Assembly: GCA_020161855.1 (NCBI GenBank)
Contig: JAIUNJ010000006.1
Span: 1 to 64,000 of the forward strand
Length of the DNA: 64,000 bases
Direction: 5' to 3'
From: Pseudomonadota bacterium
GTDB taxonomy: Bacteria; Pseudomonadota; Alphaproteobacteria; Rhizobiales; Aestuariivirgaceae
The stretch's first letter is position 1, and the number at the start of each line of letters is the position of its first letter. The notes under the pieces are model-generated. The model searched no databases, was not told the DNA's origin, and saw nothing but the letters and a program-made list of their open reading frames with translations. Positions 17,465-33,894 of this stretch are shown one piece after another. The translations under genes and the position numbers were made by a program.

Positions 17465-18379
17465 CTACCTGTTAGCCGCCTCTCCATTCGGCAGGGTCAG
17501 CGCAACAAGATAGAACAGAATGTCGCCGAGCGTGGTGACAATGCGGCAAGCCAGAATGACTACAAGCAAGGTGGCTTCTGGATAACGGCCTGCAAGCAGA
17601 TAGAGCAGGACGACTTCCCTGATGCCGAGTCCGGCTGGCGAACCAGGCACCACAAAACCAGCCAACCACGCAAGAACATAGGCAACGCCAGCCAGGCCCA
17701 ATGCGCCATAGCCGGAGTTACCCATTCCCCCGGCGTCCAACTGCTGAAGTCCTGCCACGAACAAGGATCCTGCGACGACATGAAAGGCCGCATGCATCAA
17801 CAACGCTCTGGCCATCAGCGGGCGCACAAGCCGGCTGGCAGCACCATATCCGGCGAGAAAAGTTGCCGTTGCAGCAAGTGCACAAAGCCAGAGATGGTCG
17901 CTTGACCATAGCAGAGCCGGCAGGAACCAGCCCAAAGTAGCTGCTGCAAAGGCAAGCGAAAGTAGTTCCGAGAACGTCGACTTAATCAGCAGCCCGCCCG
18001 AAAGACCGTCCTGTACACCGATCGAATAGCGGGAAACGTATTGAAACACGTTTCCCGGGATGTACTTTGCAATCTGGGAAACGCCGTAGACCTTCGCCGA
18101 CCACAATCGAGTTTGCTCAAAACCCAATGCAAAAAGTTGGTTGTGCCACGCGAGTGCGAGTAGAAGATTCGCAAAGGCATAGATTATCGTTGCCGAGGCG
18201 ATGAAGGGCCACAATGACAACAGTTGGATGGTGTCATTGACAGATTGCCATTGGCTAGCCAATCGCCAGCTGACAAACGCAATACCAATGATCGCGAAGA
18301 GATTGCCCAGTATCCGTGCACATCTCTTCCAATTCAGTCTGTGTTTCACGGGCGCGCGCGACAAAGCACCATTGTCCAT
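17465..18379 (-). CDS. YbhN/LPG-synthase-TM-like polytopic membrane protein
   Basis: A 304-residue protein with about seven or eight transmembrane helices, related to the membrane half of lysylphosphatidylglycerol synthase (YbhN/AglD-like, UPF0104). Typical motifs are QIAKYIPGNVFQYVSRY in the middle and FVVPGSPAGLGIREVVLLYL near the C-terminus. Members often sit in glycan loci and are suspected lipid or glycolipid flippases, which is not proven. Its start overlaps the end of the methyltransferase gene by 34 bases, so the two form one unit. The cluster has no Wzx or ABC exporter in view, so this is one of the few candidates for moving a lipid-linked product. Confidence 0.8.
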   Translation of the reverse strand: MDNGALSRAPVKHRLNWKRCARILGNLFAIIGIAFVSWRLASQWQSVNDTIQLLSLWPFIASATIIYAFANLLLALAWHNQLFALGFEQTRLWSAKVYGVSQIAKYIPGNVFQYVSRYSIGVQDGLSGGLLIKSTFSELLSLAFAAATLGWFLPALLWSSDHLWLCALAATATFLAGYGAASRLVRPLMARALLMHAAFHVVAGSLFVAGLQQLDAGGMGNSGYGALGLAGVAYVLAWLAGFVVPGSPAGLGIREVVLLYLLAGRYPEATLLVVILACRIVTTLGDILFYLVALTLPNGEAANR

Positions 18380-18996
18380 GGCAGAGGCGTTCGAACCTCA
18401 ACTATTTCAAAGTGTTCAGCAAGCAAACCATGGATTCCACTGCGCGACCAGTGCTGAAGATGGCCCGGCGTGTTTCCCAGAGCCCTCCAGTACTTGCCCC
18501 GAGCCATGTTGAGAATCCGCCAGATTGGCTCGCGAGGCACGCTCACGATCAGGTTGCGCTTCACCAGTCGCTTCAGCACTTGTACTGCCAAGCCCGGATG
18601 CTCAAGATGTTCAAGCACCTCGCAACAAACGACGAGATCTGCCCCATCCATATCGGGGGTCAAATCATATATGCTCCGCTGACTGAAGATTTCATCATCG
18701 ACATTTAACTGCCGGGCGTTAGCCTTAGCAATTCCCACTACGGTTTCCGAGAAGTCAGAGCCTCTCGCCTGCCGCCCTTCCCTCGTCCAGCGAAGAACCC
18801 AGTATCCTTCACCGCAGCCGACCTCATGAATGTCAGCAGGAGCTGCTAACTGCACCAGCGCCTGCAAGTCGTCGTGAAACCCCTGCATCAATCTTTTGAC
18901 GATCGGGTTGCGAGAACCATACTTATCGAAGTAGTTGCCGACCACGATGTTTTGTTCGGTCGCACCACCGGCCATACGTATGTCATTCATAAACAT
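18346..18996 (-). CDS. Class I SAM-dependent methyltransferase
   Basis: A 216-residue methyltransferase of the Methyltransf_11/23 kind. Motif I is HEVGCGEGYWVLRW (about 58-71). An acidic motif II follows (RGSDFSETV), and the post-motif block reads DLVVCCEVLEHLEHP. The C-terminal part NTPGHLQHWSRSG is typical of methyltransferases in polysaccharide loci. The substrate is probably a sugar or lipid-linked glycan, by context. ATG 18996 is chosen, though Met-3 (MNDIRM) is an equal alternative. It overlaps the YbhN-like gene downstream. Confidence 0.85.
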   Translation of the reverse strand: MFMNDIRMAGGATEQNIVVGNYFDKYGSRNPIVKRLMQGFHDDLQALVQLAAPADIHEVGCGEGYWVLRWTREGRQARGSDFSETVVGIAKANARQLNVDDEIFSQRSIYDLTPDMDGADLVVCCEVLEHLEHPGLAVQVLKRLVKRNLIVSVPREPIWRILNMARGKYWRALGNTPGHLQHWSRSGIHGLLAEHFEIVEVRTPLPWTMVLCRARP

Positions 18997-19028
18997 GCAC
19001 TCGCAATCTGCACAGGACCCTTCGCACC

Positions 19029-19553
19029 TTAACCAGGGAAGCGGACTCCTGATACGTCAACGCACATGAGACCATCTCGCATAAGCTCATCACGCGAAAC
19101 CAAACGCTCGGGTAAGTCGGCTGGATATCTACCCAGATCAACGTTGGCTCCGCGAATGTCGGCAACGTCAGAACCACCTCCAGTAGTTGGCTCGAGACGA
19201 GCCCAAGGAACCTACACCCATTGACCATACACTCGCGCAGTCAACTCTGGCTTCCCCGAAAGACTAACCCAATGAACCGGAGACGACAGCGCCACCAGCC
19301 CCGTAACTCCCATTGCGGCTGTACACCCATGTGTCAAGTTGAACGACGCTCGATAGCTATTCGAGATCACCTTGCGGCCGACACAATCACCTCCGACAAC
19401 ATGCAAGCGGGCCTCGGAAATAGCACTTGTCGTAGCAGACATCTCGCTGGAGTCCGAAACTGACACAGCGTGATGCCCAGCAAGCACCACTTCTTCGAAA
19501 TCCACCTCGCCAGACGGAGCATGCCAAGATTCACCGTATAGAAACCAAACAAG
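19029..19553 (-). pseudogene. Decayed coding sequence of unknown family with an in-frame TAG
   Basis: One minus-strand frame reads protein-like from 19553 to a TAA at 19031-19029, broken only by a TAG at 19214-19212. Before the stop it contains HAPSGEVDFEEVVLAGHHAV and GVTGLVALSSPVHWVSLSG; after it come GGGSDVADIRGANVDLGRY and DGLMCVDVSGVRFPG. Upstream the frame is lost, but a second frame (from about 19606, ELIGRNLSILFDWLL) could be its N-terminal remnant. I do not recognise the family. It fills most of the 600-base gap between the methyltransferase and the GT-C gene, where no intact gene is visible. It could alternatively be stop-codon readthrough or sequencing error. Confidence 0.45.
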
Positions 19554-19611
19554 CTAAGAAGCCAATCGAACAGAATGCTCAGGTTACGGCCGATCAGCTC
19601 CTGCACTCGTT

Positions 19612-21090
19612 CTAAAAGGTATCAATGGCATTATATATTGGGAGAGAAAACCTGACCCAATAGACTGAATCAAATGCAATAAACAACACCAACAACAACA
19701 TGAATATATACTTCGAATATCTTATGCTTGAAATTTCACTGACAAGAGCAACAAGAAACACAGGCGCGATCATGTATACGTACCGGCCATGAAGCGCCCC
19801 GGAACGCCCGCGGTCCAAATAAATACTATAAAAGGCCTGCATTACGAGTATGAGTGAACACATCATCGCTGAAAAAGCGAGAATAGAGAACTCAAGCGAC
19901 GGGCTGTTTTCGGGGATCAGCTTGTACGCTCTGATCATCGCACTAACGCACAAAAACGAAATCAGAGCTACAATTAGACTTGAAAGAATTGTCTGATGCG
20001 AAACGTAGAGGCCCAGAAACAAGGAAACTGCCCCGCAGCACGCAAAGCTACCAAGGGTTAGAGGAACATTCCCGGCAGCGTGCCAACGTTTTCCAGATAG
20101 CATCCCCCAAGCCGCGCTTCCAAGAAGGGCAATAATCGATGCCATATAGAAGAACAACAGCCTTCCAGAAGGGAAACTCGTAACTGCGGAAACAGACTGA
20201 TCTCTGACGACCCAGATGAATCCTGAGAAAGTGGAGACCACAGTCTCTATGACCGGCACCTCTCTCAAAAATTTTGCAAAAGAGACTTTATCTGCAGAAA
20301 GCACGTTTTGATCGCGATAAGGAACCAGAAGCAGCCCATGCTGAAGCGCCATGTAGCCATGCCAGCCGACCACCGGCACCCAAAGCAAGAACACCGCAAG
20401 ACAGTACTTGTAGTCGAGACGGCCCTTCAAGGCATTTGCTGCCCCGAAGTACAAGGTGAATCCCAGCAGAAGCGGCACGCCAGTAGATTTCGACAGCGAC
20501 ATCAGGGAGAACATCAACAACGTCAATAGCTGAAAGCGCTTTTGGCGGCTGTAGAGAGCACGGATAAAAAAGTAGGCTGCACAAGCGCCAAGTGCAAAGA
20601 TGAGCACATCATGGTTTGCTATTCCTGCGGTCGTAGCAAACATTGGAGTGAATGCCGGCACGGCCATGGCAAACATTGACGCGTTGAGTGATCCAGTGAG
20701 CTGCAGAGTGGCGCTGTAGATAAAAGCCAGAGCTACAACGGCAATAATAGCGCTGAGGCTTCGGATCCAACGAAGCTTTGCCTCGACCGTGAGATCCAAC
20801 TGATCAAGCAAAAATGAAAGTGGCGCCGCAGCCGCATGATAGAGAGGCGGATGCGTGAGAATCCAATTGCTGGACTGATTTTCATTCTTCCATGCACTTT
20901 TCACCGCCTCAACATCCATGTCAGCCTTGCCGAGGACAGGAAATTCGCCCTTTCCAAGATCGGAGATATAGCTGTAGTGGCCAATCTCATCTGGTCCTGA
21001 CCAAGGTGGTATTATCAGCAGCCCGAGCACAAGGAATTTCACGAAGGCGAAGGCCAGGAAAAACCGATAGAGATGAGGACTGAGCGTCAT
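19612..21090 (-). CDS. Polytopic GT-C/DUF2142-like membrane glycosyltransferase
   Basis: A 492-residue membrane protein with about eleven to thirteen helices. Just after helix 1 it has PPWSGPDEIGHYSYI, which corresponds to the acidic DExxH loop used by GT-C and DUF2142 proteins to handle polyprenyl-linked sugars. The motif THPPLYHA follows before helix 2. These features suggest a polyprenyl-phosphate-sugar-dependent transferase modifying the glycan on the periplasmic side. The donor is unknown. ATG 21090 overlaps the upstream gene's stop by four bases, which fixes the start. A/T content is visibly higher than in the flanking core genes. Confidence 0.75.
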   Translation of the reverse strand: MTLSPHLYRFFLAFAFVKFLVLGLLIIPPWSGPDEIGHYSYISDLGKGEFPVLGKADMDVEAVKSAWKNENQSSNWILTHPPLYHAAAAPLSFLLDQLDLTVEAKLRWIRSLSAIIAVVALAFIYSATLQLTGSLNASMFAMAVPAFTPMFATTAGIANHDVLIFALGACAAYFFIRALYSRQKRFQLLTLLMFSLMSLSKSTGVPLLLGFTLYFGAANALKGRLDYKYCLAVFLLWVPVVGWHGYMALQHGLLLVPYRDQNVLSADKVSFAKFLREVPVIETVVSTFSGFIWVVRDQSVSAVTSFPSGRLLFFYMASIIALLGSAAWGMLSGKRWHAAGNVPLTLGSFACCGAVSLFLGLYVSHQTILSSLIVALISFLCVSAMIRAYKLIPENSPSLEFSILAFSAMMCSLILVMQAFYSIYLDRGRSGALHGRYVYMIAPVFLVALVSEISSIRYSKYIFMLLLVLFIAFDSVYWVRFSLPIYNAIDTF

Positions 21091-21710
21091 CTGCGTGTGC
21101 CCTGCATTACAGCAATGCCAGCGACGAACGCACTGGAGATGCACGCAAAAGCAAGCAAGAAGGCCCCGAGGCGCGACTTGAAATATAGTACCGAGGGAGG
21201 CTGCGCGTATGACCAAATTCTCAGTTGCATTGAAGTCTGACCATCAAGCTCCAGCGACGCCCCAAGGCTCGTGTCTTTGGTCAGCCAGACTGACGGTGCC
21301 TTCGATTTGTCTTTCTCAATCCCGGAGATAGCAAACACGACACTCTCACTCCGACCTGGATCTGCACAGATCTCGTTGTAAGCGTTGTCAATCATCGTGC
21401 CCGGCGGTATCACAGTCTCGGCAATAACTTTTCCATCGGCCAGCAAGCTCAGAGCAACGCTGCCCGTCGCCTGTCCGCGATATGTCCCGATAGGTACGGC
21501 GACACAAACTCTTCCACCGGTGTGGTCCTTGAGCCCAATGACCTGGGAAATCTTCATTCCCTGGACAAGTCGTGAAGAAGGTTGGCGTTCGACGGAACGC
21601 AGATTCACCAGCTCAGGTATGACGGGCAGAGCAAAGAAAATCCACGCAGGAATTGCTACAGCTGTCGCAATGCAAAATAGTCTCGACACCATCATGCGAT
21701 CCATCTGCAT
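21087..21710 (-). CDS. Bitopic membrane protein of unknown function
   Basis: The 207-residue product has a transmembrane helix near each end (about residues 8-30 and 180-202) and a soluble middle of about 145 residues, probably periplasmic and beta-rich (GGRVCVAVPIGTY, GSVALSLLADGKVIAETVIP). I do not recognise a family. It overlaps the GT-C gene by four bases, so the two are co-translated and likely act together, perhaps as an accessory subunit. The open frame begins with three possible Met codons (1, 3 and 6-7 region); the first is used here. Confidence 0.7.
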   Translation of the reverse strand: MQMDRMMVSRLFCIATAVAIPAWIFFALPVIPELVNLRSVERQPSSRLVQGMKISQVIGLKDHTGGRVCVAVPIGTYRGQATGSVALSLLADGKVIAETVIPPGTMIDNAYNEICADPGRSESVVFAISGIEKDKSKAPSVWLTKDTSLGASLELDGQTSMQLRIWSYAQPPSVLYFKSRLGAFLLAFACISSAFVAGIAVMQGTRR

Positions 21711-21833
21711 TCAGATTGCGCCCCTTTGCTATATCTAAGTTAACTTCGCTACTGAAACTCCCCAGAGAACGATCAGCTCATCGTTCAACCACACCATTGA
21801 CTCTCTCCTGGCACCGACTGCCCATCGTTCGCA

Positions 21834-22232
21834 CTACTGCTTGGGACTCTCTCTCACAGTCACTTTCACCTGTGTTGAAGATATTCCCTCAGTACGCCGC
21901 AGATATACTACCTTCACGATATCGCTCAGGAAGTCAAACTTGCCCGCCCAGTCGTCCCCCATGGCAAAGATATTTGCCCCTTCACGCAGGACATCTTCAC
22001 GCTTCTGCTCCCAGTTCGACTCGGGGAAAACGTGGTTCACAAACCGGCACGCAAGAAGAATCTCAACCCGCTGATCATACGGTATGGCGACACTTTTTCC
22101 CTTGATGCGGTTGAACTCGTCGGTCGAGCATCCGACAACCACGCGATCGCCTAAATCTGCCAGCCGCTTCAGCAGCCGAACATGCCCGACATGAAAGAGA
22201 TCGAAAGTTCCGTAGGTAATAACCGTTGTCAA
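21834..22232 (-). CDS. tagD: Glycerol-3-phosphate cytidylyltransferase (TagD type)
   Basis: TagD makes CDP-glycerol from CTP and glycerol 3-phosphate, the donor for glycerol-phosphate polymers. The 132-residue protein has the family length and both signatures: GTFDLFHVGHVRLLKR near the N-terminus (the GxFDxxHxGH motif) and RTEGISST near the C-terminus. WAGKFDFL is also typical. Related enzymes can use ethanolamine-phosphate or other alcohol phosphates, but the sequence best fits TagD. It lies just after the large gene carrying a TagB/TagF-like domain, which supports CDP-glycerol as the shared intermediate. Confidence 0.92.
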   Translation of the reverse strand: MTTVITYGTFDLFHVGHVRLLKRLADLGDRVVVGCSTDEFNRIKGKSVAIPYDQRVEILLACRFVNHVFPESNWEQKREDVLREGANIFAMGDDWAGKFDFLSDIVKVVYLRRTEGISSTQVKVTVRESPKQ

Positions 22233-22264
22233 TCTAGCCCCCTTCTCTCCCCGCCCCTCGAGAA

Positions 22265-25200
22265 CTAATGCAAACTGAGATCCCGGCCCGCTGCCCTTCC
22301 CTTCTCCAAAAGCGAAGACAGCACCTCCTCCAGGCGAGACGCGGAGTTCTTGGCCGAAAAATGCGCCAGGGCTCGCGCGCGCGCGGCCAGTCCCACGCGC
22401 TGCCGCTCATCTGCATTGTCGACCAATTTCAGGACGCAATCAAACCAATCCTGCTGCGAACTTGGCAGATATCCATCAACACCGTGCTCGATGCAGTCCC
22501 GATAGGACCCGGTAGGTGACGCGATCGTTGGCACGGCATGCAGCGCTGCCTCAAAAACCTTCAACTCGCTCTTGCAGTCGTTGAACCGGCCGGCCTTCAG
22601 AGGCGCCAAGTTAATATCCATCCCAGACAAGAACGCATGCATCGCCTCGTATGACATCTTCTGATGCGAGATAAAGCCTCGCTTCAGTTCCTCATCATGG
22701 TTCGAATCGTAGGCCAATGCCCCAACGATATGGATCTCAACATTCCTCCGGCTTTCCAGCACTCGCTTCAACGCTTCAGCACAGATCATAAAATCTGCGC
22801 GATGCGTGCGTGTGCCAGACAAATAGCAGATGCGGATGGTCTCAGCAGCCCGCCTGTCAGGCAAGCTGGAAGAATAGCGGGCGATAAGCCCATCGGAGAT
22901 TGCATTCGGTATCACCGAAGCGGAACAGCCCAAGATCTGGGCCTCCTCCACCAATGCGGCCGTCGAAACAGTGGCATAATCTGCAAGCCGCATACCACGC
23001 CTGACACCATAGCTTTGCGCCACAATCTTGGCGTAAGCATCCGAACGATCGAGAGCATATTCCGACTCTTCAATCGCTTCACCAAAGATCAGATCATCAA
23101 TATCGGCAACAACCAGTCCGCCTGTGGCCTGAAACACCTGGCAGAAATCAGAGATCTGATCGGTCACCGCCACGCGAGATATGATGACAATAGACGCTGC
23201 AGCAAACTGCGCCATGCTAACGGACTGGTCATCTGCGATCAGGCAGCCCCATCCCCGCTTGAACATCTGCTCAGCCAAGGCAAATACGCGATACCGGGCC
23301 GAACCTTCCTCTCCCTTTCCGTAGACCCACAGAATTGTCCGTTTGGTGGCGGAGACTGAGCGCGCAAACGGCACTGATGATCCGCTGCCGCTGGCGACCA
23401 CCTTTGCTGCAACCCTTTCCGAGTTCCTGTCGTCGCGGTAACTCAGGAACAATCGCGCCTTCTGCTCGTATTCGCGAGTTTCCTCGGGTCTGCGTGGCAG
23501 CAGCGAAGCCTCAAGCGCAAGCATTAACTGAGAAAAATCGCGCGCCACCGGACCTGGGAAACACCATTCAAGATCATAAAAAAAGCCACGTTGCTGCTGG
23601 GCATAGCTTTCGAGATCATAAGCGAAACTCACAACCGGCCGCCGCGTGATTAAGAAGTCAATGAAGCTGCTTGAGTAGTCCGTGAGAAGTACGTCCGCGC
23701 GCCGGTATAGAACCTCCGCTTGAGGATATCTCGCCTCCGATAGATCGATAAAATTGTCACCAGACAATACTCTTGCGTATGCATGACCTTCATCTGCCAT
23801 GTGTTCGCGAATGCCCATAACCATGTTGTTGCGTGACAAAAAGGCGTTGATAGCCTCAACCTCGTCTGGGCTGAACTTATAGTATCCGTCGACCTGATCG
23901 GTGCGGAATGTCGGCATGAAAAGTAACAGTTTTCTCTCACCCACCGTTTCTTCAAGCCGCCGCAGATCCTCCCGCAGATCCGGAGCAAGCGCATCTGGAG
24001 AACACATGATGAAATCATGCCTCGGCAAACCAGTAACCCACACATTCTGATAGGTAAGCGGATACTGCCCCGCTGTCATCGCCAACCTATCCACCTCAGA
24101 AGCCGATATCACCGATGCAAACTTGCGGTTTTCACTTTCGACGCCTGCGAGATTGTCTTGAAAATCAAGAGATGCGTAGTTGATCCGCTTCAGAGGAATT
24201 CCATGCCAGAGATTGTGAAACCGATGATGGTCCGGCGAGAGTCTGTAGTGGGTATTTGTGACTGTGGCGTGCTTGATAAACACGTGTCTCGAACGAAGCA
24301 GGTAGAACTGCCCTTCACGACTCTGCAGCGGCACCACAACGACGTTCTCGCCCTTGACCGGCACATTCTTTGTACGCGTGAGAACAATCTTCTTAATTCT
24401 TGGATTGTTGGCCACAAACTCAAAAAGCGCCCGCAAATTGTCGTTCAACAAATGACTAAAGGCGCAAACGGGAAACGCCCACCAGCTATCATACTTAGGC
24501 GTGAGGAGATCCAGTTCCTCCATCTCGGAATAGCCAAATGGCGGCTCAACGCTCTCCACTGCAACATGTAAACTAGTGTGTAATTTTTTAGCGTCGCTCA
24601 CTCGCTCGAGGTTGCGAGAAATGTGACTCAGGTCCTTCTCGATTCCGGCCATCCTGAGCCGCTTCTGCCAATGATCGAGCCCCGAAACCTGATAGTGATT
24701 ATCGCTGAGAAAATAGCGCTTCAGCAGCGGAAATCCCTCAGAGATCACATCGAAGACGATGTCGGAAAAGACCGCGTTCTTGGCATACACCTTCGGCAGA
24801 TACGCATCGAAATCATAACCACGGGACAGCAGCCAACGCGTCAGTCCAATCTCATATTTCTTTATAGTCAGCTTCTTGCTTCCATGTGGCGCTACCGAGT
24901 TCAGAAGCTGTCTGAAATCCTGATCGTTAAAAACGGGACTTCGATACGCCAAAAAATATGAAGCCACGAAGAAGTCATACTCTGGATCGTCTTCAAACGC
25001 GGTGAGAAGACCGGCCTTTACCTCCGTGACAGCGGTATCGAAAGCGAGGCCCTGGCGCCGCCACGTGGAAATCAGGCCCTTGCCTGCCTGCATGCCCCAC
25101 CAGTCAGCATCAGACCTAGCCATTGTGGAGAAGGCCTCATCGAGCGGCCGCAGAAGATAGCAACTATCGTTGACCAGCAGTAACTCATCATAGGTCTCAA

Positions 25201-26044
25201 TGGTCTCCCAACCGACCAACTCCCTGGCCAGCTTAGACCACGATCCAAAGTCGTATGCGCCATGCCGGATAGCCCATGCGCCTCTTGTTATGCCGCTGAG
25301 CTTGAGCAACTGGCTGCCGTCCATCTTGCAATCGGCAAGGTAGTAGACATCCGAAAACTTCGAAAGTTCCGTCACATACTCAACGACAGTGTCGTCCATC
25401 TGCCCATCACGATCATAGCCGGCAAAGAGGCATATGCGGCGATAGGTGTGAGCCTGAGATCGCGTTTCAGAATGCGAGCGCAATACGACAGGAGTTGGGG
25501 GTTTGGTGAGGAGCCCGTTGCTGCGCCCTTCCTGAATGTAGTGGAGCAATGGATTCTGGTCGAACCTTCCATCCAGGTGCTCCTGAACATACCACCAGAT
25601 ATCAAAAGCGGCGCTCGGATTGCTGAGTTCCTCAACGCCACTGACAAGAAAGTGAAGCAACGGATCCGCCCCAAGGCGGCCGATACGCGGATTGTTTTGG
25701 AGGTAGTATCCAATGTCAAACAATCCGCTGCGAGCAATCTCCTTATATACCCGCCGAAGATCTCCCATATCCGCTATGGATTTTCCGATGCCGTGTTGAA
25801 AGCAGTGCAGCAACGGATTGGCATCGCGCGCACCTTCGCGCCTGGCCTGAAAATCGGCGGTCACGATGTAGGCCGAAGGATTGAGCTGCTCTTTCCATCC
25901 TGCTTCCATGAAATGTTGAAATGGCTTCAGCGCGCTCTCTGAAACAAAGGGATATGCCGATAGATAGTAGCGCGCATCGAACAAGCCACTTTTCTCAATT
26001 GCATTGAGCAAATCACTATCAATGACCGATTTCACCGCCACCAC
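22265..26044 (-). CDS. Multidomain surface-polymer transferase: repeats + RgpF-like + TagB/F-like + GT4-like
   Basis: A 1259-residue soluble protein with four parts. Residues 1-180 hold tandem repeats of the pattern YYLxxNP...PLLHFLxxG...PS (for example 113-136 and 164-172). Residues about 200-460 resemble the first half of rhamnan-synthesis protein RgpF (YDFGSWSKL 264-272, YDELLLVNDSCYL 285-297, ADWWGMQ 313-319). Residues about 520-885 match CDP-glycerol glycerophosphotransferases (WHGIPLKR 613-620, LLTDYSSSFIDF 786-797). Residues about 903-1250 form a GT4-like glycosyltransferase with SELKVFEAALHAVP. With tagD next to it, it probably builds a glycerol-phosphate and sugar chain. Fusion of these modules is unusual; an assembly artefact is unlikely because the frame is continuous. 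Confidence 0.85.
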   Translation of the reverse strand: MVAVKSVIDSDLLNAIEKSGLFDARYYLSAYPFVSESALKPFQHFMEAGWKEQLNPSAYIVTADFQARREGARDANPLLHCFQHGIGKSIADMGDLRRVYKEIARSGLFDIGYYLQNNPRIGRLGADPLLHFLVSGVEELSNPSAAFDIWWYVQEHLDGRFDQNPLLHYIQEGRSNGLLTKPPTPVVLRSHSETRSQAHTYRRICLFAGYDRDGQMDDTVVEYVTELSKFSDVYYLADCKMDGSQLLKLSGITRGAWAIRHGAYDFGSWSKLARELVGWETIETYDELLLVNDSCYLLRPLDEAFSTMARSDADWWGMQAGKGLISTWRRQGLAFDTAVTEVKAGLLTAFEDDPEYDFFVASYFLAYRSPVFNDQDFRQLLNSVAPHGSKKLTIKKYEIGLTRWLLSRGYDFDAYLPKVYAKNAVFSDIVFDVISEGFPLLKRYFLSDNHYQVSGLDHWQKRLRMAGIEKDLSHISRNLERVSDAKKLHTSLHVAVESVEPPFGYSEMEELDLLTPKYDSWWAFPVCAFSHLLNDNLRALFEFVANNPRIKKIVLTRTKNVPVKGENVVVVPLQSREGQFYLLRSRHVFIKHATVTNTHYRLSPDHHRFHNLWHGIPLKRINYASLDFQDNLAGVESENRKFASVISASEVDRLAMTAGQYPLTYQNVWVTGLPRHDFIMCSPDALAPDLREDLRRLEETVGERKLLLFMPTFRTDQVDGYYKFSPDEVEAINAFLSRNNMVMGIREHMADEGHAYARVLSGDNFIDLSEARYPQAEVLYRRADVLLTDYSSSFIDFLITRRPVVSFAYDLESYAQQQRGFFYDLEWCFPGPVARDFSQLMLALEASLLPRRPEETREYEQKARLFLSYRDDRNSERVAAKVVASGSGSSVPFARSVSATKRTILWVYGKGEEGSARYRVFALAEQMFKRGWGCLIADDQSVSMAQFAAASIVIISRVAVTDQISDFCQVFQATGGLVVADIDDLIFGEAIEESEYALDRSDAYAKIVAQSYGVRRGMRLADYATVSTAALVEEAQILGCSASVIPNAISDGLIARYSSSLPDRRAAETIRICYLSGTRTHRADFMICAEALKRVLESRRNVEIHIVGALAYDSNHDEELKRGFISHQKMSYEAMHAFLSGMDINLAPLKAGRFNDCKSELKVFEAALHAVPTIASPTGSYRDCIEHGVDGYLPSSQQDWFDCVLKLVDNADERQRVGLAARARALAHFSAKNSASRLEEVLSSLLEKGRAAGRDLSLH

Positions 26045-26194
26045 TTTCCAAACTCTTTTCTACGAAAAGCAACTTCCCAACAATGCAACTGAGGGAACAT
26101 ACGAAAGCTCACACCTGCAGACCGAATTCTGCGGTAGAATTCAGGCAACCACGCGGCTGCATGCCTTGAACCAGGAGCGCACCGTCCCTGAACA

Positions 26195-27145
26195 TCAATC
26201 TTGCCATAGGTCTTGAAAACCCGCCGGCTGAGATGTGTGGCCAAGATCCTCGGCCGCTACCTTGAGCTCTTCGCGCAACCGCTCCGCTATCCGCGAGCCA
26301 AGTTCCTCGTCGGCAGCAACCACATGATCGTGAATTTTGACGGTGCGCTTGCTTGTAAGCATGGGAAACAGGATCCTGGCCCGGTTGGAAACTTCAGGGC
26401 CGGCGAAAATGCTGGCCCGCGCATGTTGAAAGACTGCCCTTGATCCAGCTTCAGCACCGTCGGGAAAATGTTGTATAGTGGAGAAGATCGGAATACCGCT
26501 CTGGCTGAGCGGCACGATGAGGCGAGCCGCATCAAGATCGTGGACCACAATGAACTTTGGATGGTAACGCGACAAAAGCTTGCGCGCCAAATGATCCAAC
26601 TCTACTCGATCCAAGCTCCCATCTAAGTTGCCCGGAGCCATGACAATTGCTTGTGCAGCCTCAGGCTCTCGTGTCGTCCCTGTTGAAAACGCATAGGCCA
26701 CGACTACGTCATACTCTGTGGCCAAGGATCTAACGAAGCCAGCCAGTACGCTGCGATCTTGCCCGCTCTGACTGGGTGCGTGTGTGGCTAGAACCAAGCC
26801 TGCCGGGCGGTTGCCGGAAAGTGCAGGCATGTCGTACTCGGCAGCCACTGAGGTTGCCCGTAAGGACAAATTCTTGCCCTCGAACAGAAAGTGCATGGCG
26901 GGACTCACGCCGGCCCTGCCGACCACAGGGTATCTGGCAACGTAGTAGGTAGGGTCAAATGCGCGCGACGGAGCCACCCCTTTTTGTTCACCGACAGAAA
27001 GATAGTGAATTGCAGGGTCCATTTTCGCCGCACGCGCAGCCAGGAGGAGCGGGTATTCTGCTTCCTTGAAGATCCCATGCGCCCGAAGCAACTTGGCGTT
27101 GTACGCCAGCTCCATCACATTTAAACTATTGTTTTTAATGGACAT
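26195..27145 (-). CDS. Repeat-containing protein with only the N-terminal half of a GT-B fold
   Basis: The 316-residue product begins with the same repeat seen in its neighbours (PAIHYLSVGEQKGVAPS, then FDPTYYVARYP and PAMHFLFEG). It continues into one Rossmann-like domain (RPAGLVLATHAPSQSGQD, KFIVVHDLDAARLIVPLSQ) that resembles the acceptor half of GT4 enzymes. The nucleotide-sugar-binding half is missing, so it is either a truncated or an accessory protein. ATG 27145 (MSIKNNSLN) is chosen because it has GGTGGGG upstream; the frame is open further upstream without family-like sequence. The roughly 240 bases between this start and the preceding gene hold nothing I recognise. Substrate unknown. 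Confidence 0.65.
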   Translation of the reverse strand: MSIKNNSLNVMELAYNAKLLRAHGIFKEAEYPLLLAARAAKMDPAIHYLSVGEQKGVAPSRAFDPTYYVARYPVVGRAGVSPAMHFLFEGKNLSLRATSVAAEYDMPALSGNRPAGLVLATHAPSQSGQDRSVLAGFVRSLATEYDVVVAYAFSTGTTREPEAAQAIVMAPGNLDGSLDRVELDHLARKLLSRYHPKFIVVHDLDAARLIVPLSQSGIPIFSTIQHFPDGAEAGSRAVFQHARASIFAGPEVSNRARILFPMLTSKRTVKIHDHVVAADEELGSRIAERLREELKVAAEDLGHTSQPAGFQDLWQD

Positions 27146-27388
27146 TGCGCCCCACCATGTCACCCTTGCCCCTTCGCAACTGTGCCAACACTCAACTAGA
27201 TAGTTGAGACCGGCTGCAGATGCAAAGGGAAGCGCCATGCTGGCGGGCATTTAGTTGCAGCGCAACATATATCAGCGGCGCCTCACCTCCCGCCGCGGTA
27301 TTGAGGCCAACAACTCACTCTGCCTGGTGCGTGAAGCTGTTCTCGGATCAAGTGGCCGGCGCCTGGCCGCACATCCGGAAACAGTGCT

Positions 27389-28177
27389 TCAAATCTCGTC
27401 CACGAGAGCCGAGAGCTCTGCATCTTGCAAGGCGAACTTCAACCACTCCCGCGCTTTTGCCGAAAGCAGCCACCTAACAGCATTTGCTTTGACGTAGGGA
27501 CTGCCGTGTTCCAGAAGCCACTTCCAGTTTGATGTCAGCGGATCAGAGAAGCCAGACCGCTCCTTCGGTAGTGTGAAAATTGCGCTAGCGGTGAAGCCAA
27601 GCTGCCTGACCTTGCTTGTCAACTGCATTTCATATGCTTCCGTGACATCACGTTTCCTCTGCAGATTTTGGATTGCTCCCCACATTCCCTGAAAGCCGGC
27701 AGACGACAGAAGGTTTCTATTGAGGAGAAGAAAGTGCCTCGGCAAATAGGCCCGCGCACCACCTATCTCGACAAGACCGACCATATCTGCGTCAATTCTG
27801 AAGGTGCCTTCGAGAAAGTCCGTGAAGCCTCGCCCGGGCCCCAGAATACTATCGTCGAGCAGAAGCAGCCGCTCTGCCTGCCACAGTTCGGGAAAGAGCC
27901 GGAAAGCATCAGCCCAAGCACCAAACTCATGGCCAAGATTGGCCCGCAGGATCAGACTATCCGTATGGGCCGCGATGTCATCGTATGATTGGCTTTGAAA
28001 TTGGTCCGAAGTGAGGACGAGGCAGCTCAAGAGACCAGCCCTACGGAGCGCAGAGAGCTGGTAAGCCACCAATGGTTCCAACGCGCCGCGATGAGAGTAG
28101 GCCACATATACCGCAACCACTTTGCCCTCGAGGCCTTTAAAGCGCGACAGTACATGGCTCGGCGCAAGAGATTTCAT
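27389..28177 (-). CDS. RgpF first-half-like glycan synthesis protein
   Basis: A protein of about 262 residues that resembles the first half of rhamnan-synthesis protein F: VVAVYVAYSHRGALEPLVAY, then LGHEFGAWADAFRLF and LLLLDDSILGPGRGFTDFLEG, with ADMVGLVEIG. These correspond to the N/D-x-G-x-DFGAW and NDSxxGP blocks of the RgpF family. The second half, normally fused, is on the preceding gene instead. Starts at 28177 (MKSLAPSH) or 28210 are both possible; the latter would overlap the upstream gene by 29 bases. The role is probably in assembling the rhamnose-containing polymer. Confidence 0.7.
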   Translation of the reverse strand: MKSLAPSHVLSRFKGLEGKVVAVYVAYSHRGALEPLVAYQLSALRRAGLLSCLVLTSDQFQSQSYDDIAAHTDSLILRANLGHEFGAWADAFRLFPELWQAERLLLLDDSILGPGRGFTDFLEGTFRIDADMVGLVEIGGARAYLPRHFLLLNRNLLSSAGFQGMWGAIQNLQRKRDVTEAYEMQLTSKVRQLGFTASAIFTLPKERSGFSDPLTSNWKWLLEHGSPYVKANAVRWLLSAKAREWLKFALQDAELSALVDEI

Positions 28178-28181
28178 GGCA

Positions 28182-30257
28182 TCAGCCCGGAGGGAACCAG
28201 GCAAGACCATTCACGCGGGTCTTGGCCATAGTGTAACCCGCATGTTCAGCAGCCACCACCAGCAGTCGCTCGAGCGCATGCAACATCGTCCCATCATTGC
28301 CGACAGGCTCTGCTGGAAGGTCATCCAAGCCAAGGCCAAGTTCAAGAATTGGCCGCATTGCCTGAGGGCGGCACCAGAACATCGTTCCGACGGGAAACTC
28401 GGGCGATTTGAGAAATGGTTCTGAAATGCCCATTCTGCTTCCAATTTCCCTCGCCATTGCGAGATTCGGGTGCCAGCCAAACCGGTACGGTTCTTCCGCA
28501 ATAACTATCCCTACCTTGTCGTCGCCAGAAAATTGGTTCAGGACCATGTCCATCTTGCATCCACCAATTGGTCCGCCGAGCAAGTGTTCCCAGAGGAACG
28601 TACGCCAACTTTCACCTCGAGCTGCCCCTGCGGCCAGACTTCGCTTTCCATGAAAATGGCCAACAACATCATATCCTCTCCCGAAAAGCTCTTCTTTGAA
28701 GGCGACAAGGAACGGGCCGATATCTCTGCCACGATTTGGCACACAGCGAACATCCACCTGCAGGCCGGTTTCTGCGAGTTTTCCACGGATGCGAGATGCG
28801 ACATCCTCGTGCGCCACGCTGATGTAGAGATCTGGTCGACTTGCGTTCAACAACAGTCGTGCGACAAATTCATCAACGAGTTCCGGATAGAAGAAGTGAC
28901 CGTGCACAGCAACGCGCAAGTCACTCGCCTGCGGCTGCGACTTCCCTTCCAGCACGTCATATTTCCAAGGACCATCGGGACGGCCCGAACGCGGGTAGTT
29001 TATGAGCAAATTCTCCCCATCAGCCAAACTGGGATGAGCAGCCACATATGAACTTGATATAAACCCGGAAACAGCTCGCCTCGCGCTTGAATCAAGTCCC
29101 TTCGCCTCCGTTCTCACGTAGCGGCCGACGCCCTCGGCAGAGTCCAGCAACTCAAATGGAGCGCGGTACAGATCCAGGGAGAACAACCCTGAATCCGCAA
29201 TCCGCTGCGCATCAGACTTCATGCGCGCCATGTCAGCTTGCAGATTCATGAACAGTCGCCACACATCATTGGTCAGGGCAGCGACGCGAGTGTTCGACCC
29301 CGGCTCCGCGATGCTGCTCTCAACAACCGCCTCTCTCTCCCGGCTCACATTTTCACCAGGTCGGGCCTGGTCGACGATAGCATCTGCCTGCCAGCCGACG
29401 ATCAAGACTTCGCTTGCGCTTATTCGCTCCAACTCATCTGCATCAGGCGGTGACGCCCCACTCCACAGCACGATGCAAGCATCGACAGATTTGGGAAGTG
29501 CCGAAACCGTCATATGCAACGGGCCCTCTTGAGACTCGCGGGCCAGCGTGATGACCGGTATAAGCCGATGCGCAAGCCTGACTTTTAGTGCCGGGGCGAG
29601 CTCCGTGAACGCGATCACGAGTTGTGGCCTATAGCGCCCGACCAAGTCTCGGACCAAACATGCCGCTTCCAGATCATCGATCGCATAAGCCTTCGCTGGC
29701 GCATCGCCAGGCGAGCTTCGGGCGGCAAAGTTTAAGGTGCCGCCATTCTGCGAAGTCAGAGCCGGATCAAGGCCCGAGACGGCAACAACAACAACCTGCG
29801 CTCTCTTTGCCAGAGCGTCCAGAATTTCAAAGTTCTCAGTGAGTTGAGCGGACGGCTTGTCGCACTCGCAAAGCGCAATTACCACAGGCCTATCCCCTGT
29901 CAGGGCGACATTGGGCCAGCGAAACTCCGCCGCCAAAGGCAGCGGTCGCTTTTTCTCCCGCTGTCCTGAATAGATGAAGTGAAGCAAGGGGCTTAGCTCG
30001 GCATGTGCGACCTCGATTGGATAGCGAAGGCGGTAGTAGTCGGGTGCAAATGCTGGCGAAGGCGTAAGGCCGGCAGCTTCCCCTTCAAGCAGGTAGTGCA
30101 CGATGGCGTCATCGTGCGCCTGAAGCAGGGGCACCTGAGACCGATAGTGAGATTCATTAAACAATCCGCTCTCACGAATTGCAGCAACCTGGTCGGTAAT
30201 TGATTTCCAGAGTCTGGCCCTAGGCACCGGGTTCATCCTCACTGCCAATTTGGCCAC
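28182..30257 (-). CDS. Repeat + GT-B half + RgpF second-half protein
   Basis: A 691-residue protein. Residues 25-105 carry the locus-specific repeat (GLFNESHYRSQVP, IVHYLLEGEAAGLTPS, PLLHFIYSG). Residues about 120-300 look like an N-terminal GT-B half without its partner, and a degenerate repeat lies near 355-425. Residues 447-690 match the second half of rhamnan-synthesis protein F: VAVHGHFFYPELVDEF (449-464), NRGRDIGPFLVAF (508-520), HFHGKRS (534-540) and the C-terminal GTMFWCRPQ. It lies directly upstream of the RgpF first-half gene and downstream of rfbC, and probably acts in building the rhamnose part of the polymer. Confidence 0.78.
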   Translation of the reverse strand: MAKLAVRMNPVPRARLWKSITDQVAAIRESGLFNESHYRSQVPLLQAHDDAIVHYLLEGEAAGLTPSPAFAPDYYRLRYPIEVAHAELSPLLHFIYSGQREKKRPLPLAAEFRWPNVALTGDRPVVIALCECDKPSAQLTENFEILDALAKRAQVVVVAVSGLDPALTSQNGGTLNFAARSSPGDAPAKAYAIDDLEAACLVRDLVGRYRPQLVIAFTELAPALKVRLAHRLIPVITLARESQEGPLHMTVSALPKSVDACIVLWSGASPPDADELERISASEVLIVGWQADAIVDQARPGENVSREREAVVESSIAEPGSNTRVAALTNDVWRLFMNLQADMARMKSDAQRIADSGLFSLDLYRAPFELLDSAEGVGRYVRTEAKGLDSSARRAVSGFISSSYVAAHPSLADGENLLINYPRSGRPDGPWKYDVLEGKSQPQASDLRVAVHGHFFYPELVDEFVARLLLNASRPDLYISVAHEDVASRIRGKLAETGLQVDVRCVPNRGRDIGPFLVAFKEELFGRGYDVVGHFHGKRSLAAGAARGESWRTFLWEHLLGGPIGGCKMDMVLNQFSGDDKVGIVIAEEPYRFGWHPNLAMAREIGSRMGISEPFLKSPEFPVGTMFWCRPQAMRPILELGLGLDDLPAEPVGNDGTMLHALERLLVVAAEHAGYTMAKTRVNGLAWFPPG

Positions 30258-30328
30258 TCAGACTTTCGCTTTGGAACCCAGCCTTGCCTCAAGCCCATCG
30301 CACCTTCAATAGGCCACACCAACACAAC

Positions 30329-30883
30329 TCAAGAGGGCAGCTCAGCCGCCTCAAGGCTTGGTGCAGCGGTATCCTTGGCATTGAGGAGCGGGATCGCACC
30401 TGAGAGTGGCCAATCGACCCCAAGGCTCTCGTCATTCCAAAGAATGCTTCTTTCGTGCTCCGGGAAATAATAGTCCGTTGCCTTGTAGAGAAACTCCGTA
30501 TCGTCAGCGAGGCTCAGGAAGCCGTGCGCAAAACCAGGAGGTATCCAGAACTGGCGCTTGTTCTCTGCCGAAAGAGTGACGCCCGTCCATCTGCCGAAAT
30601 GCGGCGAGCTGCGCCGGATGTCCACTGCCACATCAAACGCTGCGCCGGATGTTACCCGCACCAATTTTCCTTGCGGATGCTGAATTTGATAGTGCAGCCC
30701 GCGCAGCACATGCTTGGCTGACTTACTGTGGTTGTCCTGCACGAAATCTACGTCAATCCCGGTTGCCGACCTGAAGTTCCGCGCATTGAAACTCTCGAAG
30801 AAGAACCCCCGGGAGTCGCCAAAGACTTTCGGCTCGAGGAGAAGAACGCCCGGAAGTCCCGTCTCTGTCACAGTATAGGGCAC
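30329..30883 (-). CDS. rfbC: dTDP-4-dehydrorhamnose 3,5-epimerase RfbC/RmlC
   Basis: RfbC epimerises dTDP-4-keto-6-deoxyglucose at C3 and C5 on the way to dTDP-L-rhamnose. The 184-residue cupin shows GFFFESFNARNF, QDNHSKSAKHVLRGLHYQ with the active-site His, and FWIPPGFAHGFLSL. It is third in activity and last in order of the rfbB-rfbD-rfbA-rfbC unit, with only 11 bases to rfbA. The rhamnan-like genes follow downstream on the same strand. Confidence 0.97.
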   Translation of the reverse strand: MPYTVTETGLPGVLLLEPKVFGDSRGFFFESFNARNFRSATGIDVDFVQDNHSKSAKHVLRGLHYQIQHPQGKLVRVTSGAAFDVAVDIRRSSPHFGRWTGVTLSAENKRQFWIPPGFAHGFLSLADDTEFLYKATDYYFPEHERSILWNDESLGVDWPLSGAIPLLNAKDTAAPSLEAAELPS

Positions 30884-30894
30884 GCCCTCGCCTC

Positions 30895-31770
30895 CTAGCT
30901 CAGAAGGCCAAGAAGATATTTACCATACGCACTCTTTGACAAGGGCGCCGCGAGCTCTTGTAGGTGTTCGGCCGATATCCATTTTTGATGGAACGCGATC
31001 TCCTCGGGGCAAGCAACCATAAGTCCCTGGCGGTGCTGAAGCGTTGCCACAAAGCCCGAGGCTTCCAGAAGACTGTCATGCGTTCCGGTGTCAAGCCAGG
31101 CATGACCCCGTCCCAGCATCTCGACCTTCAATGCGCCAGCTTCAAGATACCTACGATTCACATCGGTAATTTCGAGTTCACCGCGGGCAGACGGCTTGAT
31201 GGTCGCCGCGATATCGCAGACGGACTCATCGTAGAAATAGAGCCCCGTAACAGCGTAATGGCTTTTGGGCTGCTTGGGCTTTTCCTCAATGCTGATGGCG
31301 CGCTGGTTTTTGTCAAATTCGACGACGCCGTAACGTTCCGGATCAAGCACGTGATAGGCGAACACCGTGGCGCCCGCCTTGGAGGCGTTGGCTGACCGAA
31401 GCTGCAAAGCCAGATCATGCCCATAAAAAATATTGTCACCCAGAATGAGCGCCGAAGGGCTCCCGCCCACAAAATCGCGACCAATGATAAAGGCCTGCGC
31501 CAACCCGTCTGGTGAAGGTTGGACGGCGTAGGAAATACTCATGCCCCATTGGCTGCCATCACCAAGCAGGTCGGCAAAGCGCGGTGTGTCCTGAGGCGTC
31601 GATATCAGCAGGATTTCCCGGATGCCGGAAAGCATCAGCGTGCTGAGCGGATAGTAAACCATCGGCTTGTCGTAAACCGGCAACAACTGTTTGGACACAG
31701 CACGGGTAACCGGATGAAGCCGCGTGCCGGAACCGCCAGCCAGAATGATGCCTTTGCGCGCTTGCGCCAT
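30895..31770 (-). CDS. rfbA: Glucose-1-phosphate thymidylyltransferase RfbA/RmlA
   Basis: RfbA joins dTTP and glucose 1-phosphate to dTDP-glucose, the first step to dTDP-rhamnose. The 291-residue product has the nucleotidyltransferase motif [14 protein letters not shown], then [32 protein letters not shown] and the metal/sugar block [20 protein letters not shown]. Met 31770 is chosen because it starts directly before this motif and has a GGGG-type upstream site. It is 20 bases from rfbD upstream. Confidence 0.97.
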
Positions 31771-31790
31771 GTGCCTTCCCCCCAAGGACG

Positions 31791-32702
31791 CTAGGATACT
31801 GTAGAGCCACCGAGCAGCCGGTCAAGGACGTCATCCACCCCCTGCTGCCAAGGGGAAAGATCGCTCCGAAAGTTCCGCCGGAACTTGTCGGTCGCCATAC
31901 GAGAATTCAACGGCCGCTTGGCCGGCGCGTTGTACTGCGCGGTCGTCGTGCGGGTGACCGCATCGGGCTGCAGCCGTACAGGCAGGCTCGAACGTGAGGC
32001 CTTAGCCACGATATGCTGCGCGAGCGCATGCCAGGTCGTGCTGCCGCCAGGCACCAGATGATAGAGGCCAAATGGAAACTGCCGCCGATCAGTAGCCAGA
32101 GCCTCGACAAGCATGCGCACCATCTGCGCCAGAAAATCGGCCGATGTGGGCGCACCATGCTGGTCGTCAACTACGGCTATGGTGTCCCGCTCCTGCGATA
32201 ATCTGAGAATTGTCTTCACGAAATTGTTGCCGTGCGCACTGACGACCCAACTCGTGCGCAGAATGACGCAGTCGGCCCCGCTGGCTGAAAGTGCCCTCTC
32301 GCCGGCAAGCTTGCTGGCACCATAGACGCTCACGGGATTGGGCGCGTCCTCCTCCACATAGGCGCCATCTTTCCGGCCATCGAAAACATAGTCCGTCGAG
32401 AAATGAATGACAGCTGCCCCGAGCTTCTGTGCCTCCTCCCCGAGGACACCCGGCGCAACACCGTTGACGGCAAAGGCCTCGCCACGATTGCCTTCGGCCT
32501 TGTCCACGGCGGTATAGGCGGCTGGATTAATGATCACATCAGGCCTGAACTCCCGAATGACCGGCCGCAAACTTTCCGGCTGGGACAGATCAAAGTCAGA
32601 GCGATCAGGAGCCAGCACGGTCTCGCCCAGAAGCGGCAGCAGAGCATTCCCCACCTGCCCCCCCTTCCCCGTCAGAAGGATACGAAGCGGCTTAGTTGCC
32701 AT
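31791..32702 (-). CDS. rfbD: dTDP-4-dehydrorhamnose reductase RfbD/RmlD
   Basis: RfbD reduces dTDP-4-keto-rhamnose to dTDP-L-rhamnose with NAD(P)H. The 303-residue short-chain reductase has the nucleotide loop [31 protein letters not shown] and the catalytic YGASKLAGE. Its start overlaps the rfbB stop by 11 bases. The four rfb genes are compact and clearly one operon that feeds the RgpF-like genes further along. Confidence 0.97.
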
Positions 32703-33750
32703 ACTGGGCCTTCACCCAATCGCGATAGGCACCCGAAGTCACATTCTTCACCCAGCCCTGATTGGCCAGGAACCATTCAACGGTCTTCCTGAGGCCCGTT
32801 TCAAAGGTCTCCGAAGGACGCCAGCCCAGTTCGCGTTGGATCTTCGAGGTATCGACGGCATAGCGGCGGTCATGCCCGGGCCGGTCAGCAACGAACGTGA
32901 TCAAGTCAGAATAGGACTTGCCACCAGCACGCGGTTTCAAATCGTCGAGCGTTGCACATAGCAGGTTCACAACATCAATGTTCGCCCGCTCCGAAGAGCC
33001 ACCAATGTTGTAAGTTTCACCAACCTGGCCCTTTTCGAGAACCATGCGAATGCCGGAGCAATGATCCCGTACATAGAGCCAGTCCCGCACCTGCTGCCCG
33101 TCGCCATAGACAGGTAGCGGCTTGCCGGCGAGGGCATTGTGGATCATCAGGGGAATGAGCTTCTCGGGAAAATGATAAGGCCCATAGTTGTTCGAACAAT
33201 TGGTCGTAAGAACCGGAATGCCGTAGGTGTGATGATAGGCGCGCACAAGATGATCAGATGCCGCCTTGCTGGCCGAATAGGGACTATTGGGTGCATAGGC
33301 CGTATCTTCACGAAATGCGGGATCGTTCGGGCCTAGCGTACCATAAACCTCATCGGTCGAGACGTGCAGCAGGCGAAAGTTCTGCTTCTCCGCCGTACTC
33401 AGCTCACTGAAATAGGCTCTGACGCTTTCAAGCAGCCGGAATGTGCCCACGATATTGGTGGCGATAAACTCTCCGGGCCCATGAATGGAGCGGTCCACAT
33501 GGCTTTCCGCCGCAAAGCTGACGACAGCACGGGGGCGATGTTGACGCAGAAGGCTTGAAACAAGCTCGCTGTCGCCGATGTCACCGCGCGTGAACGTGTG
33601 GCGCTGATCGGATTTGAGGCTTTCAAGATTCTGGAGGTTTCCGGCGTAGGTCAGCTTGTCCAGATTGACCACAGGTTCGTCGCAGTGAGCCAGCCAATCC
33701 AGCACGAAATTGCTGCCGATGAAGCCCGCACCACCCGTAACAATGATCAT
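32692..33750 (-). CDS. rfbB: dTDP-glucose 4,6-dehydratase RfbB/RmlB
   Basis: RfbB converts dTDP-glucose to dTDP-4-keto-6-deoxyglucose. The 352-residue enzyme has [15 protein letters not shown] at the N-terminus, the catalytic [15 protein letters not shown] and [17 protein letters not shown] 33750 is chosen because the Rossmann motif starts three residues in and GGAGG precedes it; a longer in-frame reading lacks homology. It is the first gene of the rfbBDAC unit. The 144 bases upstream separate it from the divergent rlmB. Confidence 0.97.
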
Positions 33751-33894
33751 AGTCCCTCCAGCTTTGCGGCACTCCCCCTCCGCAGCGACGCAACCATATG
33801 GCGGGAAAGGCAATGGCTTTCAACGGCGAGATTGCCCCAAATTTTTAGCCAACTTTCCCGGTGTTAATACGGGCAAATGACGCTAAGAGGCCCC

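Follow-up and report, generated by a model that had tools for sequence, protein, structure and literature searches.

A four-part RgpF/TagF-like/GT4-like fusion protein beside a TagD-type gene in an alphaproteobacterial genome: a candidate single-chain synthase of a glycerol-phosphate glycan

The fusion protein and its TagD-type neighbour

The window studied here, a stretch of 64,000 nucleotides (positions 1 to 64,000 of contig JAIUNJ010000006.1, assembly GCA_020161855.1) from an alphaproteobacterium of the Aestuariivirgaceae, carries on its minus strand a gene for a four-part fusion protein of 1259 residues, followed by a gene for a TagD-type cytidylyltransferase. Both open reading frames, reported 32 bases apart in an initial annotation, were found at the positions below.

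22265..26044, minus strand: four-part fusion, 1259 residues, GTG start (open reading frame list, Pfam, AlphaFold2, Foldseek)
25475..26044, minus strand: N-terminal helical repeat of the fusion, residues 1-190, of the type FDxxYYLxxNP..PLxHF..G, without family match
24545..25447, minus strand: RgpF N-half or GT-A-like domain, residues about 200-500, with invariant YDE..NDS (Pfam, model, alignment)
23396..24448, minus strand: Glyphos_transf (TagF-like) domain, residues 533-883, with catalytic H614 and H748 (Pfam, alignment, fold)
22307..23332, minus strand: GT4-like GT-B domain, residues about 905-1246, with Cys in place of the first Glu of EX7E (Pfam, model, alignment)
21834..22232, minus strand: TagD-type CTP:glycerol-3-phosphate cytidylyltransferase, 132 residues, TTG start, 32 bases downstream of the fusion

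The three domain calls of the initial annotation (Glyphos_transf, an RgpF-like half and a GT4-like domain) were all recovered in Pfam. The family RgpF (rhamnan synthesis protein F, PF05045) matches residues 257-494 with E 2.1e-20, over positions 25-250 of the 503 of its profile; the fusion thus holds the N-half only (RgpF-N hereafter) and the C-half sits in a neighbouring protein of 691 residues. Glyphos_transf (PF04464), on whose presence within residues 520-885 the earlier proposal depended, matches residues 533-883 (E 5.6e-51, profile 26-366 of 367), and this is the sole match to the family within the genome, which is 91.94% complete. Glyco_trans_1_4 matches residues 1072-1210 (E 1.4e-10) and the GT4 families together cover about 1072-1239, while residues 1-190 have no match in Pfam or NCBIfam. 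With NCBIfam, the fusion scores 84 bits for TarF and 70 bits for TarL, the cut-offs of these models being far higher (550 and 1000). At the sequence level the TagF-like domain is closest to TarL (8va1, E 4.9e-18), with further matches to TagF and Cps3D.

The order of these relatives is different by fold. An AlphaFold2 model of residues 500-1259 (18 alignment rows, predicted local distance difference test (pLDDT) score 83.2) has Cps3D (8qoy) as its first match in the PDB, with E 3.7e-22 over 839 alignment columns, more than a single domain can account for; TagF comes second (E about 1e-16) and TarL ranks below both. The residues named for Cps3D in the available part of its description, H479, R542, R607, H609, S647, S648 and D652 (PMC11666461), correspond in the fusion to H614, R675, R746, H748, S791, S792 and D796, each of them kept in 18/18 rows. 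The model of residues 1-520 (24 rows, pLDDT 85.7) begins with helices and continues into an alpha/beta domain, for which Foldseek gave GT-A-type proteins such as Kre2p, TarP and glycogenin with E values of 9e-5 to 1e-3 and low TM-scores, which supports the GT-A fold class and no specificity. A PDB profile search with the repeat and RgpF-N gave a single match, to Cas1 (E 0.49), and the repeat, though helical in the model, has no TPR or other Pfam match. Residues D211, D217, D238, D286, E287, N292, D293 and S294 of RgpF-N are kept in 24/24 rows.

The TagD-type protein matches CTP_transf_like in Pfam (E 9.2e-21). Among solved structures its best matches are the glycerol-3-phosphate cytidylyltransferases 1coz (147 bits, 55% identity) and 2b7l (139 bits, 51%), above the ethanolamine-phosphate enzyme (63 bits) and the choline-phosphate enzyme (33 bits), so that the identity first given to it stands. 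In an alignment of ten rows (the window's TagD, seven cluster relatives and the two solved sequences), both His of HxGH, R113, T114 and S118 are invariant, T120 is kept in 9/10, and the Gly of RTEGISST varies. Both the motifs (HxGH and RTxGIS-type) and the nearest solved relatives are thus those of TagD/TarD.

Distribution of the RgpF-N/TagF-like pair

Among 60 relatives, of which 36 share the genus and 24 the order, not one has more than a single part of the fusion; six match the repeat or the GT4 part, and TagD-like matches at E <= 1e-20 occur in four of the 60, none above the cut-off. Among 385 genomes of the class, the window's own included, RgpF-N and the TagF-like domain are both matched in the own genome alone, four others having one part each. 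At the level of the phylum, 25 of 398 genomes, again with the own one, carry Glyphos_transf at E <= 1e-20, and in the short stretches around these matches RgpF-N shares the reading frame in just two cases, the own genome and genome G652. The initial annotation had described CDP-glycerol (cytidine diphosphate-glycerol) pathways as best known from Gram-positive walls; with these 25 genomes, and with such capsules being a known type, the view that one is unusual in a Gram-negative bacterium is not supported.

Of 146 matching plasmid records, one covers at least 80% of the fusion, that of Roseovarius faecimaris (L042), with 44.8% identity over 97%. All four parts are kept on this plasmid, with TagD directly behind, four rml genes and an ATP-binding cassette (ABC) exporter set, and its public record labels the protein as a CDP-glycerol glycerophosphotransferase family protein. 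Since a near-full-length relative with TagD directly behind it exists there, the fusion is not a product of chance, and the pairing of the two genes noticed in the initial annotation is supported as well. An Enterobacter plasmid (L043), with only the repeat and GT4 and without the TagF-like part, was rejected as a relative. No match was obtained in a DNA-level search of both RgpF genes against plasmids, and none of the 53 phage records matched spans 80% of the fusion, the ten listed matching one part each.

In the named genomes, a search with the single fusion sequence gave no relative and a three-row alignment then gave 79 loci (220 relatives, 79 loci kept), the first 20 of which (L048-L067) were analysed. 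RgpF-N and the TagF-like domain lie in one frame at 19 of them (L048-L066, with a truncated TagF-like part in L066); at L067 and the other 59 loci the RgpF part alone was matched, at query residues up to 356. As recorded, the 19 loci belong to five Alphaproteobacteria, three Gammaproteobacteria, one unclassified proteobacterial metagenome-assembled genome (MAG), three Campylobacterota and seven Actinomycetota. Pfam found both domains in all eight of the 19 proteins scanned, with the RgpF C-half in addition in two from Campylobacterota, and six of the eight have no glycosyltransferase family beyond RgpF-N and Glyphos_transf. The RgpF-N/TagF-like pair recurs across phyla as a widespread unit. 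At L060, L062, L063 and L064 (three Nocardioides, one Demequina) two adjacent paralogues of the pair are found, the second copies being longer-branched.

For the comparison of architecture and gene context, 21 loci were set beside the window: L048-L066, the Roseovarius plasmid and the locus of G652 (L044), which is of the same phylum. A C-terminal GT4 fusion is present in the window and at L042, L048, L056 and L058. In L044, GT4 is N-terminal instead, the order being repeat, GT4, repeat, RgpF-N and TagF-like, and TagD overlaps by one base. In a tree of 25 core sequences, midpoint-rooted and with several rows deviating in composition, the proteins with C-terminal GT4 form one group (support 100/99), inside which falls the long-branch Gemmobacter row L065, in which GT4 was not seen, and L044 groups with two Campylobacterota proteins (97/95); 14 of 500 shuffles gave as few changes in the C-terminal GT4 label. 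Read most simply, separate lines each acquired the GT4 activity, at opposite ends of the core, and this recurrent joining is the best evidence for three activities in one pathway; permutation or loss of an older fusion may also account for the two positions. The G652 cluster (L044, 4871-9375) encodes besides a GT2, a sulfotransferase-family protein and a polysaccharide pyruvyltransferase, which suggests further charged decorations.

In the window and at 8/21 loci (L042, L044, L049, L050, L051, L054, L057, L059) TagD follows the fusion directly on the same strand; at five more (L048, L055, L056, L058, L065) it is elsewhere in the examined flank. A whole-genome search of 13 carriers of the pair (L062, L051, L054-L056 and L066 left out) gave TagD above the cut-off in eight, at 110-125 bits in three and at 57-61 bits in two Cellulomonas; in the control genomes there were matches in 9/14, two of them above the cut-off. 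The window and 6/21 loci (L042, L044, L052, L053, L064, L066) have at least three rml genes close to the fusion.

The surrounding island and the proposed assembly

Upstream of the fusion, on the same strand, lie a repeat-bearing protein, the two RgpF halves and the rml genes, these last named from their Pfam families; two further genes are found downstream.

19612..21216, minus strand: PMT_2-type glycosyltransferase, 534 residues (Pfam)
21087..21710, minus strand: protein of 207 residues without assigned function, between TagD and the PMT_2 gene
26195..27250, minus strand: repeat-bearing protein, 351 residues, without family match
27389..28210, minus strand: separate RgpF N-half protein, 273 residues (Pfam E 1.4e-15, profile 3-197)
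28182..30257, minus strand: repeat and RgpF C-half protein, 691 residues (Pfam E 1.3e-49, profile 264-503)
30329-30883, minus strand: rmlC
30895-31785, minus strand: rmlA
31791-32702, minus strand: rmlD, above the TIGR01214 cut-off
32692-33813, minus strand: rmlB

The GC (guanine plus cytosine) content is 51-57% across 18-32 kb (2-kb steps) and 57-65% in the remaining window, and the stretch 18000-32000 is flanked by household genes, tgt and queA on one side and a SpoU methylase, serS and tatC on the other; an acquired glycan island fits this low-GC stretch. The helical repeat, of about 50 residues (FDxxYYLxxNPDV..PLxHF..GW.E.RNPS), occurs at 25475-26044, 26195-27250 and 28182-30257, without Pfam or NCBIfam match in the window's proteins, and also in large frames of two genus relatives, two order relatives, Roseovarius and the Enterobacter plasmid (L004-L006, L008, L009, L042, L043). 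At 27389-30257 RgpF is split, with the C-half gene and then the N-half gene, and the same C-then-N order exists inside one chain with the TagF-like domain in a Sulfurimonas and a Campylobacteraceae MAG (L054, L055).

Export genes were compared as well. Contig C13 of the own genome carries Poly_export, Bac_transf, Polysacc_synt (Wzx-type) and Wzy_C genes together. Two own matches to the permease family PF01061 were rejected as capsule exporters, the one at C7 being CcmB and the one at C13, which adjoins an ABC ATPase and a DUF4424 protein, not being counted. KpsC/S (PF05159) was found in 3/15 other carrier genomes or records, one of which is the Roseovarius plasmid alone. A permease and an ATPase lie upstream of the fusion in Luteimonas and Pseudoxanthomonas yeongjuensis, and an ATPase, a permease and a 'sugar transporter' are found by the Roseovarius fusion, with a similar set in a Rhizobiaceae MAG (L056); we take these exporter genes to be Kps-like.

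From the sequence and the models, we lean towards the fusion being a single-chain assembler with three active sites which, fed by TagD, would produce a poly(disaccharide-glycerol phosphate). TagD would make CDP-glycerol, from which the TagF-like domain could transfer glycerol-3-phosphate to a sugar hydroxyl, and the GT-A-like RgpF-N and GT4-like domains would add two sugars, at least one of them probably rhamnose provided through the adjacent rml genes. The cycling of these steps would yield the polymer, as with Cps3D and HS1.09, which have one sugar per repeat, and the N-terminal helical repeat, in the place of the TPR domain of Cps3D, may tether domains or partner proteins. Two sugars and one glycerol phosphate are the most economical reading of the repeat unit, and the processive repeat-unit synthase for a glycerol-phosphate heteropolymer put forward in the initial annotation is plausible by analogy. 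Here we infer the donor sugars, the order of linkages, processivity and polymerisation, export and the role of the repeat.

Several observations weigh against this assembler. TagD is not seen in the examined flank of 8/21 loci, some of which are on short contigs, its score in the window (143.1 bits on TIGR01518) is under the curated cut-off of 165.4, and the two Cellulomonas carriers (L052, L053) have only the low-scoring matches given above, hinting that this branch uses another donor. Only a minority of loci have rml genes close to the fusion, and RmlD is above its cut-off in 13/15 carrier genomes compared with 9/14 control genomes. The superposition on Cps3D has a root-mean-square deviation of 24.6, the relative placing of the domains being in disagreement. 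RgpF-N has no DxD, NDS occupying the expected GT-A position in 24/24 rows, and its fold matches include nucleotidyltransferases beside glycosyltransferases. In 6/6 aligned GT4 domains Cys or Ala stands in place of the first Glu of EX7E (the second Glu is kept in 5/6), which makes any assignment of donor or mechanism to this domain tentative. Finally, with neither a KpsC/S match nor a capsule-type PF01061 permease in the own genome at its 91.94% completeness, the export of a long polymer is unexplained.

This lack of a recognisable capsule or O-antigen ABC permease, together with the Wzx/Wzy-type locus of C13, keeps alive the explanation that the fusion is a non-processive builder. It would attach a single set of two sugars and one glycerol phosphate to a lipid-linked oligosaccharide, which Wzx/Wzy would then flip and polymerise. 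We consider this explanation unlikely, since the locus is on a different contig and ABC exporters adjoin the fusion in Roseovarius, Luteimonas, Pseudoxanthomonas yeongjuensis and the Rhizobiaceae MAG. It could also be proposed that the fusion decorates or caps, with glycerol phosphate and possibly a sugar, a rhamnan that the separate RgpF halves (27389-30257) would synthesise. These halves and the rml genes do adjoin it, and streptococcal polyrhamnose bears glycerol phosphate decorations according to the accessible part of the source (PMC11754754). Nevertheless, three transferases in one chain would better suit a backbone cycle. The donor of the streptococcal decoration is moreover phosphatidylglycerol, outside the membrane, and not CDP-glycerol, and a decorating or capping role thus appears improbable.

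The two remaining explanations are compatible with the others, so that the likelihoods given here overlap. RgpF-N could be a non-catalytic scaffold in an ordinary TagF-like/GT-B polymerase, as NDS in place of DxD would allow; NDS, YDE and further polar residues are however invariant in 24/24 rows across three phyla, and the six scanned relatives in which no other glycosyltransferase family was found point to RgpF-N as the likely sugar-adding part there, which makes a scaffold quite improbable. The donor might instead be a different CDP- or sugar-phosphate compound such as CDP-ribitol, and TagD would then have another purpose. The ribitol-phosphate polymerase TarL as best sequence match of the TagF-like domain, the sub-cut-off score of TagD and the two Cellulomonas carriers without clear TagD are in agreement with it. 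In contrast, TagD is directly behind the fusion in 9/22 loci, window included, Cps3D and TagF outrank TarL by fold, and TagD shares 55% and 51% identity with the two solved glycerol enzymes; we regard another donor as very improbable.

Beyond the single-chain assembler, and with somewhat less than even likelihood, an undescribed family of glycosyl-glycerolphosphate polymerases, shared by Gram-negatives and Actinomycetota and working mostly without KpsC/S, may be built across phyla on the RgpF-N/TagF-like pair as its core. Alphaproteobacteria would have added a third active site to this core, so that one protein could make the whole disaccharide-glycerol-phosphate repeat, rhamnose included.

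Comparison with known systems

The published systems are compared here as they appear in the accessible portions of the cited papers. CDP-glycerol capsules are established in Actinobacillus, Neisseria, Bibersteinia and Campylobacter (PMC8262930, PMC11924219), and single-chain polymerases joining a glycerol-phosphate transferase to a glycosyltransferase have been proven biochemically for Cps3D and Cps7D (PMC5974469, PMC8262930, PMC11666461) and for HS1.09 (PMC11924219). Literature searches covered open-licence PMC papers: no paper was found with both RgpF and glycerophosphotransferase fusion terms, neither the three-domain chain nor the cross-phylum pair was met in the part of the matches consulted, and a search on rhamnose in Nocardioides teichoic acid led to a paper on Cobetia and gave nothing of use.

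The window's cytidylyltransferase shares HxGH and RTEGISST with TagD/TarD (1coz, 2b7l) and differs from them by its TIGR01518 score. Of the features of TagF-like capsule polymerases, the fusion has the glycerol-phosphate transferase domain with two catalytic His and the fused glycosyltransferase, whereas for the KpsC/KpsS of group 2 capsules the own genome, at its 91.94% completeness, has no match. Most of these polymerases bear a TPR-type helical domain at one end, where the fusion has its predicted helical repeat without TPR match. The RgpF halves, split in the window between the fusion and its 691-residue neighbour, are both in the chain in the two Campylobacterota relatives.

Cps3D and Cps7D of Actinobacillus pleuropneumoniae have, as predicted for the fusion too, an N-terminal helical domain, a TagF-like glycerol-phosphate transferase and then a GT-B domain in one chain; their clusters likewise include a cytidylyltransferase, and the catalytic residues of the TagF-like domain are conserved. 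Cps3D has the GT-B EX7E, of which the fusion lacks the first Glu, and is described in the portion available as TPR, CgoT and CgaT only, the RgpF-N/GT-A domain being the extra part of the fusion (PMC11666461). In Cps1B a GT-A domain is N-terminal to the TagF-like one, which is the order of the fusion core, but it was modelled on K4CP with DxD, whereas the GT-A-like domain of the fusion is an RgpF N-half with NDS (PMC5974469). HS1.09 and HS1.11 of Campylobacter jejuni HS:1 share with the fusion the helical regions, the TagF-like and GT4 domains in one protein and a separate CDP-glycerol synthase; their active domains are two in number and each repeat holds a single sugar, galactose, compared with three predicted active domains here (PMC11924219).

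The two published archetypes, GT-A/TagF-like and TagF-like/GT-B, therefore meet in one chain, a combination that is outside either as described in these portions, and it is this meeting around a cross-phylum RgpF-N/TagF-like pair, missed by the initial annotation, that is the real peculiarity of the locus. Teichoic-acid-like polymer synthesis would then reach from a small number of encapsulated pathogens into further bacteria in three phyla, and one chain possibly making a three-component repeat in vitro would be useful for understanding how multidomain polymerases set order and length. Since the same pair is present in Actinomycetota and Pseudomonadota, it may link glycan assembly of the Gram-positive type with that of the Gram-negative type. 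Systems of this kind are already known, and what is new relative to the papers searched is the apparent combination of three transferases.

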